A stretch of 64,000 nt of DNA from Campylobacterales bacterium. Lineage in GTDB: Bacteria; Campylobacterota; Campylobacteria; Campylobacterales; Sulfurimonadaceae. A program made the translations under genes and the position numbers. The DNA lies in assembly GCA_026390115.1 (NCBI GenBank), contig JAPLGO010000001.1:98978-162977 (forward strand), read 5' to 3'. Of this stretch, positions 34,676-38,639 are shown in pieces. Below the pieces are notes generated by a model. It was not told where the DNA came from. It made no database searches and saw only the letters and a list, made by a program, of their open reading frames with translations. How positions within the stretch are numbered: the first letter of the stretch is position 1; each line of letters starts with the position of its first letter.

Positions 34676-35356
34676 GTGAAAATACTACTAATTGCATTTA
34701 TTATTATTGGTATATTAGATGCTCGAGAAAATCCTTTTTTTCCCTCCGACGGTGAGAAAGATATTCCATATACTACAAATGAAACCGCTGTTATTTTGCC
34801 ACTAAAAAAAGCAACTATAGCGCTTCCTCCTCAAGCAAGAGTTCTTCAGGGCGTAACAATACAGTATAAAAATCTTGATGGTTCAGAAGAGAATAAAACT
34901 ATCCCGTTAGAAAATTCTGTTGATTGGCATAAGCCAATTTTCATATCTCAAAACTATACTTCTAATGATGCTATTCAAGAAGAGAATATAAAAAAAGATT
35001 CTGTGAAAAAAGAGACAGTAAAAATAGAAGAACAGCCTGCAAGAAATGGGGATAAATATCAAAAAATAGCCTCTTTTGAATATGCGAGTTTTTATTCATC
35101 GGAAAAATATTTTAAAATTATTACTAATGATAAAATAATAAGAAACTTTCTGCTTATTCAGCCACATAGAATCGTAATAGATTTTAAAAGCAGTAAGAGT
35201 GTCAAATTTTATGAACAGAATATCACTGAAAATGTATTTACAAAGATAAGAGTAGGAAATCACGATGGATACTATAGAGTCGTTATTGAATTAGACGGCT
35301 ACTATAGATATAATGTGAAAAACATGGATGACAGCTATGTTTTTCAGCTATTGTAA
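34676..35356 (+). CDS. AMIN-domain periplasmic protein
   Basis: About 226 aa; GTG 34676 is favoured because AAGGG lies 8 nt upstream, with GTG 34673 as alternative. Signal peptide (KILLIAFIIIGILDA), a variable Lys/Glu region, then a C-terminal AMIN domain (FLLIQPHRIVIDFKSS; FTKIRVGNH), which targets envelope machinery to peptidoglycan or septa. In relatives it is followed by aroK; here aroK is missing and a minus-strand operon follows instead. Confidence 0.78.
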   Translation: MKILLIAFIIIGILDARENPFFPSDGEKDIPYTTNETAVILPLKKATIALPPQARVLQGVTIQYKNLDGSEENKTIPLENSVDWHKPIFISQNYTSNDAIQEENIKKDSVKKETVKIEEQPARNGDKYQKIASFEYASFYSSEKYFKIITNDKIIRNFLLIQPHRIVIDFKSSKSVKFYEQNITENVFTKIRVGNHDGYYRVVIELDGYYRYNVKNMDDSYVFQLL

Positions 35357-35360
35357 AATT

Positions 35361-35534
35361 CTAGGACTTAAATATTAAATTAATAATTCTTTTAAAGAGT
35401 GACTCTTTTTCCCCTTCAACAATATAGACATTTTCAACTTTTATATTGTTACTCTCTATTTTCTTAAATATATTTAACTTATTTTTTAGATATTCAGATG
35501 CTATATGAATATTCTTTGCTTCAAATTTATTCAA
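35361..35534 (-). CDS. 57-aa hypothetical peptide coupled to MotB-like gene
   Basis: Starting at a TTG (35532-35534) that overlaps the MotB-like stop by 8 nt, a frame of 57 codons encodes MNKFEAKNIHIASEYLKNK followed by a Lys-rich, mildly amphipathic helix and IVEGEKESLFKRIINLIF at the end. No signal peptide or named domain. Coding is supported by tight coupling to the operon and protein-like composition; it is too short to be sure. The remainder of the gap 35357-35360 is empty. Confidence 0.45.
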   Translation of the reverse strand: MNKFEAKNIHIASEYLKNKLNIFKKIESNNIKVENVYIVEGEKESLFKRIINLIFKS

Positions 35535-36642
35535 AATCTAACAGCCTGCCAATCTCATCCATAGCATCATCATTTCTCAAGCTAAATTTAATCTCAATTC
35601 TTCTTGAAGCATCTTTGTCTTCTACCATATCTTTATTGTAAATAGTGTCTTGATACGAACGACCACTTGCCACTAAAAGAGGCTTAAGATTATTATCGTT
35701 AGTAAAATCTAGTGTTAAAAGATAGTTCATAACCGCATACGCTCTTTGTTGGGAAAGGTTTAAGTTATATAAATATCCTCCGTCACTGTCTGTATGCCCT
35801 TCTATGGATATTCTGTCAAGCTGAGACTGAATACTTTTGTTTGATATCAAAGCACCTATATATTCAATGAAGACTTTCTTAAGCTCTATTTTTGACGACT
35901 CTTTTAACTCAGCACTTCCTTTGTCAAATAATATATTTGATGCTAACCTTAAAGAACCGCTTTTTGGGTCAATCTCAACATTTTTTCCAAGACTCTCTTT
36001 TAGTTCTGCAATAAGCTTTATTTTAATACCTGTCAAACCTTTGATTTTAGCCTTTTGGGCTTGGAGTTTTGCTATGAGCACATCATACTTTGTCTGCTTC
36101 TGCTCTATTGCATGTAATAGATCTAAAAGCTCTTTATCCTTTAATTTTAATGTCTCATCTTTACCGCTTAATTCATTAGAGAGTATTAAAACTTTGTTCT
36201 CATAATCTTGCAGTTTTTTGTTTTGATTGCTCAAACTGGTGTTTGTTTCACTGAGTAGATTTTGTATAATTATTATTTTGGAGTTGAAATCATCAACTTT
36301 CATATTTTGTGCCAATAACATATTGTTTAAATTCACTATCTCTTCAGTTTTTAATTTCAATGAATCTCTCGTTAAAATCAAAGCATCTTGTGAACTCTTT
36401 AGTTCATTCATTCTATCTTCCAGTAACTTTTTTAGTTTTTGAACTTCCGTGTCTCTCAAAAGTAGCATTCGTGTAGAACTCTCTAACGAACTCTCTTTGT
36501 TATCGAGATTTGTTTTGAGCACGATTGATTTTACAACTATTGCACCAATAAGCAGAATAAAAACAAAAAGCAAGCCTGCCATAAGGTCAGCATACGATAT
36601 CCAGAAGTTTGCGTTATCATCATTTTCGTTTTTATAAAACAT
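35527..36642 (-). CDS. MotB/ZorB-like OmpA-domain stator protein with long coiled coil
   Basis: 371 aa. Residues 13-37 form one membrane helix with the MotB-type motif ISYADLMAGLLFVFILLIG, whose Asp (D19) is the expected proton-binding residue. A coiled coil of about 190 residues follows, then an OmpA/peptidoglycan-binding domain with ISIEGHTDSDGG and NLSQQRAYAVMNYLL. The helical stalk is much longer than in flagellar MotB. It directly follows the MotA-like gene with no gap. I infer a proton-driven stator anchored to the cell wall, closest in shape to ZorB of Zorya defence. Confidence 0.82.
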   Translation of the reverse strand: MFYKNENDDNANFWISYADLMAGLLFVFILLIGAIVVKSIVLKTNLDNKESSLESSTRMLLLRDTEVQKLKKLLEDRMNELKSSQDALILTRDSLKLKTEEIVNLNNMLLAQNMKVDDFNSKIIIIQNLLSETNTSLSNQNKKLQDYENKVLILSNELSGKDETLKLKDKELLDLLHAIEQKQTKYDVLIAKLQAQKAKIKGLTGIKIKLIAELKESLGKNVEIDPKSGSLRLASNILFDKGSAELKESSKIELKKVFIEYIGALISNKSIQSQLDRISIEGHTDSDGGYLYNLNLSQQRAYAVMNYLLTLDFTNDNNLKPLLVASGRSYQDTIYNKDMVEDKDASRRIEIKFSLRNDDAMDEIGRLLDFE

Positions 36643-37803
36643 TTATTGAGCTTTTATCTGACTAGCTATCATCTGATGATATTTTTTTACACTATCTTGA
36701 ACTTCTTTACTCTCTAAACTCACATGCGTTGCAAAATCTGCCAATTTTATAACTATATCACCTATCTCTGCATCAATCTTTTCAAATGTTTTATCAAGTG
36801 AAGTAGTAAGATGTGCATTAAATATTTTAGTGCTCTTTTCAAGATTTTTTGTTGCATAAGTAAAGTCTAATAAATTCTTCTCTATCTGATTTTTCGCTTC
36901 TTGTGCATTTTGATTATTATCCATTAAAGAAAGTGTCTCTTTTAGCTCTTTGGATGCATATTGAAGATGGCTAGATATTTGTGTAAAGTTATAGTTGCTT
37001 TCATGCATAATTTCTTTAAAACTTGATAAATGCTGCTCGTTGAGTGTCTTGACGAAATCAAGATTAAAAGTTTCACGCAATGCTGTAAGAAATCTATTGT
37101 CTTTAAGCTCATATTGAGAATATTTATAAATTGTCAACTCATCATTTGACCATACATTTGATTTAAATCTTTCTTTAATAGCTGCAAAGTAGTGGTCTAT
37201 CTTGCTAAGGCCGCTTTTTTCAAAATATGTCCATATAAGAGAGAGCAGGATTCCATAAATAGAAGCATAAAATGCAGAGCCAACGCCACTTAAAAGAATA
37301 GATATATCATTATCTAATGCCGTAGTATCTGAAACTGAAAAAGTAGGCATCGAGATAGAGATTGCTAAAAATGTTCCTAATATTCCTAACATAGGAAATA
37401 TTGATGCCGCAACTGCCACAAAGTTGTTATTCCTAATATCTGCATAATAATGATTTAAAAAATCTCCAATATCAAGCACAGATTTTCTCTCGCTATTGAT
37501 AATTAAAGAGTTTGCCTCTAATTTAGAATTTAAAGCATTCTCCATTTTTATATAAGAAGAACGCATCTTACAAATACTGTAATTAGCATTATGTTTGGTA
37601 AACATTAAAAAAGTAAGTAAAATAAATCCAATAATCAAGACCGAAGAGAGCGGCACATTAAGCGGAATTATTCCCATGTATCCCATGACTATAGCTAAAA
37701 AGAATAGTACAGGAATCATAGAAATAACAATAAAGTTTGCAGAGCACAATGAAGTGCTTCTTGAAATTGGCATGTTTGTTCCTAGTATATTAGATAAAGA
37801 CAA
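36643..37803 (-). CDS. MotA/TolQ/ExbB/ZorA-like channel protein with cytoplasmic tail
   Basis: 386 aa. Hydrophobic helices at about 28-48, 53-70, 136-155 and 172-192 suit the MotA/ExbB proton-channel family; ASIFPMLGILGTFLAISISMP and LLSGVGSAFYASIYGILLS are the conserved pore helices. Beyond residue 220 a long helical tail (about 165 aa) projects into the cytoplasm. It partners the MotB-like protein encoded next. The tail is shorter than in ZorA but in the same place. Flagellar MotA is unlikely because length, tail and context differ. Confidence 0.82.
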   Translation of the reverse strand: MSLSNILGTNMPISRSTSLCSANFIVISMIPVLFFLAIVMGYMGIIPLNVPLSSVLIIGFILLTFLMFTKHNANYSICKMRSSYIKMENALNSKLEANSLIINSERKSVLDIGDFLNHYYADIRNNNFVAVAASIFPMLGILGTFLAISISMPTFSVSDTTALDNDISILLSGVGSAFYASIYGILLSLIWTYFEKSGLSKIDHYFAAIKERFKSNVWSNDELTIYKYSQYELKDNRFLTALRETFNLDFVKTLNEQHLSSFKEIMHESNYNFTQISSHLQYASKELKETLSLMDNNQNAQEAKNQIEKNLLDFTYATKNLEKSTKIFNAHLTTSLDKTFEKIDAEIGDIVIKLADFATHVSLESKEVQDSVKKYHQMIASQIKAQ

Positions 37804-37812
37804 AATTATATA

Positions 37813-38430
37813 CTATTTTTTTGGCACATAAACGCCATTTTGATCCCAAATGTCAATTTCTCCCATAATATTACCATTACTGAAAAAAGCCTTATATCCT
37901 AGCTGTCCATTCTCATGCCATTTTTTTTGAAGACCATCTTTTTTACCATTTATATAGAGTCCTTGAGATGCTAAGTTTCCATTTTCATGCCAAGTTTTAT
38001 ACTCGCCGTCTTGAAGATCATTTTTAAAGTATGAGCTGCTTTTTTTTCTGCCGTTTTCATACCAAGTAGCAACTTCCCCGTTTTGCAGTCCCTCTTTAAA
38101 GTAAGCGACTACGGCTTTTTTATCATTCTCGTAATTACCTATATATTCGCCGTCTTGCTTGCCCTTTCTAAAATAAGCAACAGTTTTTATAGCTCCATTA
38201 CTTCTCCATTCTGTCAATCTTCCGTCCATTTGACCTTGATAGTAAGGTACGATTTTTTTTGTTTTGCCATCTTCAAAAAAGAAGTAAGCATTTCCTGTAA
38301 AAACTTCATTTTTATCTTTTTCATAGGACAAGTTATTTTTTACAACAAGTATATTTCCATCGATATCTTTTGCATGAAGAGCAAGGCTTAACCCAAACAT
38401 TAAGATAATCATCATTAGTACATTTTTCAT
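37813..38430 (-). CDS. secreted MORN-repeat (YwqK-like) protein
   Basis: 205 aa from ATG 38430 (AAAGGG 5 nt upstream; a GTG at 38436 is less likely). Signal peptide to about residue 22 (LSLALHAKD), then six to seven MORN-variant repeats of about 23 residues, with phrases like GKQDGEYIGNYENDK, GLQNGEVATWYENG and DLQDGEYKTWHENG. Relatives are annotated as YwqK family antitoxins or phosphatidylinositol-kinase-like MORN proteins; true function unknown. It is first gene of the operon, 9 nt before the MotA-like gene, so it may act on the periplasmic side of the motor. Confidence 0.75.
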   Translation of the reverse strand: MKNVLMMIILMFGLSLALHAKDIDGNILVVKNNLSYEKDKNEVFTGNAYFFFEDGKTKKIVPYYQGQMDGRLTEWRSNGAIKTVAYFRKGKQDGEYIGNYENDKKAVVAYFKEGLQNGEVATWYENGRKKSSSYFKNDLQDGEYKTWHENGNLASQGLYINGKKDGLQKKWHENGQLGYKAFFSNGNIMGEIDIWDQNGVYVPKK

Positions 38431-38639
38431 AAACACCCTTTAAATTTTTTCTGATTGTAAGCATATCAATTTATTGAATATATATTCATAAGATTGTTAT
38501 TATTTTTTATTATTTATATTAACTTTGTGTAATAAAGTAAGATTTCTAATTAATATTCGCATAACAAATAGATAGGGTTGTTTTTTTATGCGTATTGATA
38601 TAAAATCTTCTTATCAAAAGGGATGCAAGAAGGATTAAA

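Follow-up and report, generated by a model that had tools for sequence, protein, structure and literature searches.

A predicted ZorAB-type motor of Campylobacterota with a conserved microprotein, no neighboring Zorya effectors and a candidate role in the cell envelope

Introduction

What does a ZorAB-like motor do where none of the Zorya effector genes lies beside it? The question is raised by a locus in a window of 64,000 nucleotides from a Campylobacterales bacterium of the Sulfurimonadaceae (genome of 2.64 Mb in 39 contigs), for which a first-pass annotation had proposed a ZorAB-like motor operon without Zorya effectors, with a MORN-repeat protein as a possible input and a small peptide as a possible output, as part of a new envelope or defense system. 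ZorAB alone has been reported to be insufficient for defense (PMC8565338). Here, we describe the gene content of the locus, the relationship of its motor genes to ZorA and ZorB, and their distribution across the phylum.

Gene organization of the locus

On the minus strand of positions 35361-38436, all four open reading frames (ORFs) were confirmed. In this clade, the run begins with the gene for a secreted MORN-repeat protein (37813..38430; Pfam MORN_2, 2.8e-16), as initially read, which is followed by A (36643..37773), a ZorA/MotA-like channel subunit of 376 aa with 4 transmembrane helices (TM) and a long helical cytoplasmic tail. B (35527..36642), a ZorB/MotB-like subunit of 371 aa, comprises a TM with Asp19, a coiled stalk, and a C-terminal OmpA peptidoglycan-binding domain, along with a conserved DKxASRRIEIKF segment. 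The last gene encodes a microprotein of 57 aa, P57 (35361..35534). The run is flanked by RND genes on one side and by recA-eno-AMIN on the other.

Two starts are available for A, TTG 37803 (386 aa) and ATG 37773 (376 aa); the latter is most likely the true one, since an AGGA ribosome site precedes it and relatives are likewise 376 aa long. The MORN protein probably starts at ATG 38430, with GTG 38436 as an alternative ORF start, while P57 starts at TTG 35534, with an 8 nt overlap with the B stop. A scan revealed 22 promoter-like sites (17.4 expected) and 0 terminators. The AMIN-domain gene and P57 are convergent, with 4 bases separating their stop codons (window 35356-35361).

Relationship of A and B to ZorA and ZorB

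Judged by profile and predicted fold, A and B are of the ZorAB type. PADLOC ZorB models matched B strongly (best ZorB1, 9.4e-57) as well as 35/35 B proteins of the family, and ZorA models matched A moderately (best ZorA1, 2.5e-16). At the level of broader families, A corresponds to Pfam MotA_ExbB (E 1.4e-7) and B to OmpA (3.6e-12), with an additional weak match of B to MotB_plug. The curated NCBIfam equivalog cut-offs were missed by far (ZorB1 68.6/400 bits, ZorA2 34.5/700, ZorA_2 33.9/100), and in a PDB sequence search A and B matched ZorA and ZorB weakly, with an E of 0.008 for A against the type II structure 8VVI.

The model of A (mean pLDDT 79) contains 4 long membrane or near-membrane helices and the long helical cytoplasmic tail that had been read from the sequence. 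Its nearest Foldseek match is type I ZorA (E 3e-5), followed by ExbB/TolQ at 3e-2 or worse, and VIA-align ranked the structures in the same way, with Z scores of about 10.5 for type I ZorA, about 9 (range 8-9) for TolQ/ExbB, and about 6.5 for the PomA/MotA stators. The pore residues of the ion-driven 5:2 superfamily, whose absence would have spoken against a motor, are in place: the membrane Asp of B is D19 in NFWISYADLMAGLLFVFILL, set within FWxxYADLMAGLLF and invariant across 35 family members, and T134 and S171 contribute to the Thr/Ser ring of TM3/TM4 in A. The B alignment has 40 invariant columns, including D19 and the SRRIE segment. The membrane Asp, long stalk, and OmpA domain initially proposed for B are all confirmed. 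In A, F126-P127, G130-I-L-G-T134-F, and S171 are invariant, with FPxLGILGTF and LLxGVGxAFY as conserved motifs. Furthermore, A and B are adjacent throughout the loci found, and their dN/dS values are low (0.035-0.08 in A and 0.035-0.044 in B).

Orthology of A to TolQ/ExbB or to a flagellar stator was considered and rejected, since separate genes for ExbB, TolQ, and MotA/MotB are present elsewhere in the same genome, and these ExbB, TolQ, and MotA proteins fall apart from both the A family and Zorya ZorA in the tree; the OmpA domain of B likewise argues against a TolQ/TolR pair. In the same tree, which was computed from a 114-column core with few columns and long branches, the reference Zorya ZorA proteins form one very long branch among the window family (support 92/98), an alignment too short and branches too long to prove that the window family is a single clade or a sister to Zorya.

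The same genome contains another A-B pair of this family on contig C15 (L061:242-2850). Its A measures 615 aa and has a long tail, and the stalk of its 252-aa B is short; P57 was not detected there, and the pair adjoins a cut-off ORF resembling a chemoreceptor fragment. A different ZorAB-like pair, outside the family, was seen at L081 (G023:C47), with a 656-aa frame for A and a B containing FWISISDLMTSLLFIFIL.

Distribution of the A-B pair

A was identified in 105/249 genomes of the order and B in 189/397 Campylobacterota genomes (at 1e-40). B is near-universal within several genera, e.g., in 22/23 genomes of genus g25, and complete in several Campylobacteraceae genera. Within the family represented by G199, 42/51 genomes encode B; most genera are complete, and the well-sampled genus g84 is empty. 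ZorA2-like genes occupy other loci and are rarer (14/249 genomes).

In the Campylobacteraceae, the pair occupies one housekeeping site, nth-peb4-fba-A-B (6 loci from 5 genera, with neighboring genes named from reading their sequences), with an ACC-deaminase-like gene on the far side of A-B from fba. We take this site to be Cj0595c-Cj0600 of Campylobacter jejuni, with A as Cj0598 and B as Cj0599. The published gene order cj0595-cj0596-cj0597 agrees with that placement; cj0598 is listed in the literature as of unknown function, and our literature search found neither a functional study of cj0598 nor a phenotype for the A-B pair. In Sulfurimonas, the AMIN-adjacent site is variable and contains the operon in approximately 5/30 genomes, a patchy presence that would fit an accessory function as well.

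Among other neighbors, a DUF2201 gene upstream of A in one genus was not counted as linked, given the gap of 88-330 nt. An HI0933-like flavoprotein and an L,D-transpeptidase are encoded side by side near A-B, with differing arrangements, in two genera belonging to one family (L045:5228-7618 and L055:4414-6906), which may hint at a link to peptidoglycan; since these neighbors were seen in one family only, they were not counted as proof of a role.

The MORN protein and P57

The MORN gene is found upstream of A in the window and in the majority of Sulfurimonas relatives, with the exception of L043, L128, and L134, and its dN/dS is 0.05-0.19. Outside Sulfurimonas, the genes upstream of A differ, which makes the MORN protein a clade-specific partner at most. 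It was therefore rejected as a core input, the role once suggested for it: it is restricted to part of one genus, and the A-B pair spans the phylum.

The further conserved component beside A and B is P57. Across unrelated neighborhoods, the ORF directly after B encodes 40-66 aa and overlaps B mostly by 4-14 nt (at most 35 nt, depending on the ORF start). A profile built from 24 such ORFs recovered the gene in 10/14 loci outside the profile set (3/4, then 7/10; from the set of 10, L136 was left out as judged identical to L009, as were L128-L131, which were already in the set of 4). With a 15-member profile, 24 matches were obtained in the 249 genomes, 23 of which lie directly beside A-B, downstream of B, while the 24th is likely false, since it lies inside a 327-aa frame. 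Against four relatives, the dN/dS of P57 is 0.14-0.40 (L042 was left out, with 7 codons only). P57 is thus a real gene under purifying selection, and a chance ORF was rejected on the grounds of its conserved profile family and this selection. No fitting family was found in Pfam, NCBIfam, PADLOC, or PHROG.

Members of the P57 family share an [FY]xPxxLxxAxxxL helix, a loose linker, and a basic amphipathic C-terminal helix, and the model of P57 places the helices at residues 7-31 and 46-55. The hydrophobic moment of the last 11 residues is high (0.55-0.91) and lies clearly above that of shuffled sequences in some members only; in over half of the members, shuffles reach the same moment at >5%. 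The strongest conservation lies outside this amphipathic end; the N-terminal part has a conserved motif, and the linker is hydrophilic. Sequences such as GFLKRIFKKLFS recall, to our mind, the membrane-targeting helix of MinD, which we regard as a lead only. The strict position after B together with the helix-linker-amphipathic helix build suggests that P57 is a partner of the motor, tethered to the membrane on the cytoplasmic side.

P57 is absent from the Campylobacteraceae loci examined and from one Sulfurimonas locus (L123/L131), in which B nearly abuts AMIN, and it was not found beside the more distant A-B pairs L132, L133, and L137. It is therefore not universally needed. A fusion of P57 to A in loci that lack the separate gene was rejected, as the C-termini of A show no such segment.

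Search for effectors, phages, and plasmids

None of 137 neighboring proteins from approximately 30 loci matched ZorC, ZorD, ZorE, ZorF, or ZorG at 1e-5, which upholds the initial impression that Zorya effectors are lacking and led us to reject a hidden effector nearby. Furthermore, the A-B family has no member in viral contigs and none in the phage collection, in which one distant match was found in an unannotated phage record. Plasmids yielded only Zorya-type ZorA and one ZorA-like gene from Prevotella, and no member of the A-B family. The latter gene lies on plasmid pE2-28 (L085:1137-10155), where ZorA-like and OmpA-family genes are flanked by unknown genes and 2 FtsK translocase genes; this locus resembles a further Zorya-like system, one whose partners are unusual.

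Discussion

From the computed family, pore residues, operon, P57 conservation, lack of Zorya effectors, and distribution, we arrive at a reading that we consider somewhat probable, namely that A-B is a vertically inherited, peptidoglycan-anchored 5:2 envelope motor with a membrane-tethered P57 on its cytoplasmic side. Five A subunits would surround two B helices, protons would presumably pass Asp19 of B and the Thr/Ser ring of A, and the OmpA domain of B would grip the peptidoglycan. P57, presumably translated together with B, would lie on the cytoplasmic membrane face by means of its C-terminal amphipathic helix, while its N-terminal helix might bind the motor, most likely the tail or base of A, and P57 could then act as an adaptor, an assembly factor, or an activity gate. 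The task of the motor, and with it the load that is moved, may be found in the envelope, e.g., in peptidoglycan or outer-membrane upkeep, and in part of Sulfurimonas the motor would be paired with the periplasmic MORN protein.

The vertical, near-core distribution, the fixed Campylobacteraceae site, and the lack of effectors argue for envelope housekeeping and against classical defense. Of the two roles initially offered, the envelope role is thus the one favored by the sequence data, while a role of A-B in phage defense is not supported, the pair lacking any association with effectors, phages, or plasmids. Were A-B a novel anti-phage system of the Zorya kind, P57 could be its effector, e.g., a cationic peptide that the motor sets free or switches on and that damages membranes. 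This reading could draw on ZorA and ZorB being the closest relatives of A and B, on the small size, basic character, and amphipathic end of P57, and on the patchiness within Sulfurimonas. It is nevertheless unlikely, as nearly all members of several genera carry the pair, as it is fixed at one site in the Campylobacteraceae, which retain it without P57, as its neighbors include no Zorya partner genes, and as P57 has a conserved motif at its N-terminus and a hydrophilic linker, while its amphipathic end is not its most conserved part.

The peptidoglycan-binding domain and long stalk of B, the periplasmic MORN partner in one clade, and the L,D-transpeptidase genes near A-B in one family would also be in line with a TolQR/ExbBD-like accessory force transducer energizing an outer-membrane process, with MORN or another protein as the periplasmic load and P57 only as an assembly chaperone. 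We find this rather doubtful, given that the domain of B is OmpA and not TolR/ExbD, that the operon contains no TolA/TonB-like partner, and that the L,D-transpeptidase link may reflect shared ancestry within its one family. Finally, the homology to MotA/MotB and database labels such as "MotB", which was also given, as a stator part, to an OmpA-family protein in the glycoproteome of Campylobacter hepaticus (PMC9816155), would suggest an additional flagellar stator; with MotA/MotB encoded separately in the genome and A nearer to ZorA than to MotA in both tree and fold, this is very improbable. The C. hepaticus glycoprotein may itself be a B protein of the A-B family.

ZorAB-like genes are read as phage defense by default, and the envelope motor favored here would belong to a family that is core-like in several Campylobacterota genera and has no effector. 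With this family, it becomes possible to test which function a nuclease-free ZorAB motor has and whether Zorya arose from an older envelope motor. Tentatively, A-B could represent a phylum-wide, non-defense ZorAB-type branch run by P57, possibly near the ancestral use that was recruited into Zorya defense. Moreover, synteny provides a candidate function class for the C. jejuni pair that we presume to be Cj0598-Cj0599, and the conserved, previously unnamed P57 is a microprotein of the kind easily missed by annotation pipelines.

Among known systems, type I Zorya (ZorA-ZorB; 8QYD, 8VVN) shares with A-B the fold of A, its long cytoplasmic tail, the OmpA domain of B, and the B signature W-[IM]-S-[YF]-[AS]-D-[LI]-M. 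However, ZorC and ZorD are absent here, the tail of A is far shorter (whole protein 376 aa compared to 696-729 aa), and A-B has a long coiled B stalk, the extra P57 gene, and a core-like distribution, with a long branch between the two. Type II (ZorA-ZorB-ZorE; 8VVI from Sulfuricurvum kujiense) is of the same motor class, and ZorA2-like genes also occur in the order, but A falls far below the 700-bit ZorA2 cut-off with its 34.5 bits, and ZorE is absent nearby. Type III (ZorA-ZorB-ZorF-ZorG) is an earlier example of a ZorAB motor whose partners are not nucleases (PMC8565338), although the ZorF and ZorG models matched neither P57 nor the MORN protein. TolQR/ExbBD belong to the same 5:2 proton motor family and have a similar core fold (Z 8-9), whereas here B carries an OmpA domain and a stalk and A a long tail. 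Flagellar MotAB/PomAB share the Asp-based pore and a peptidoglycan-binding B, but are the weaker fold match (Z ~6.5), and the genome has its own MotAB elsewhere.
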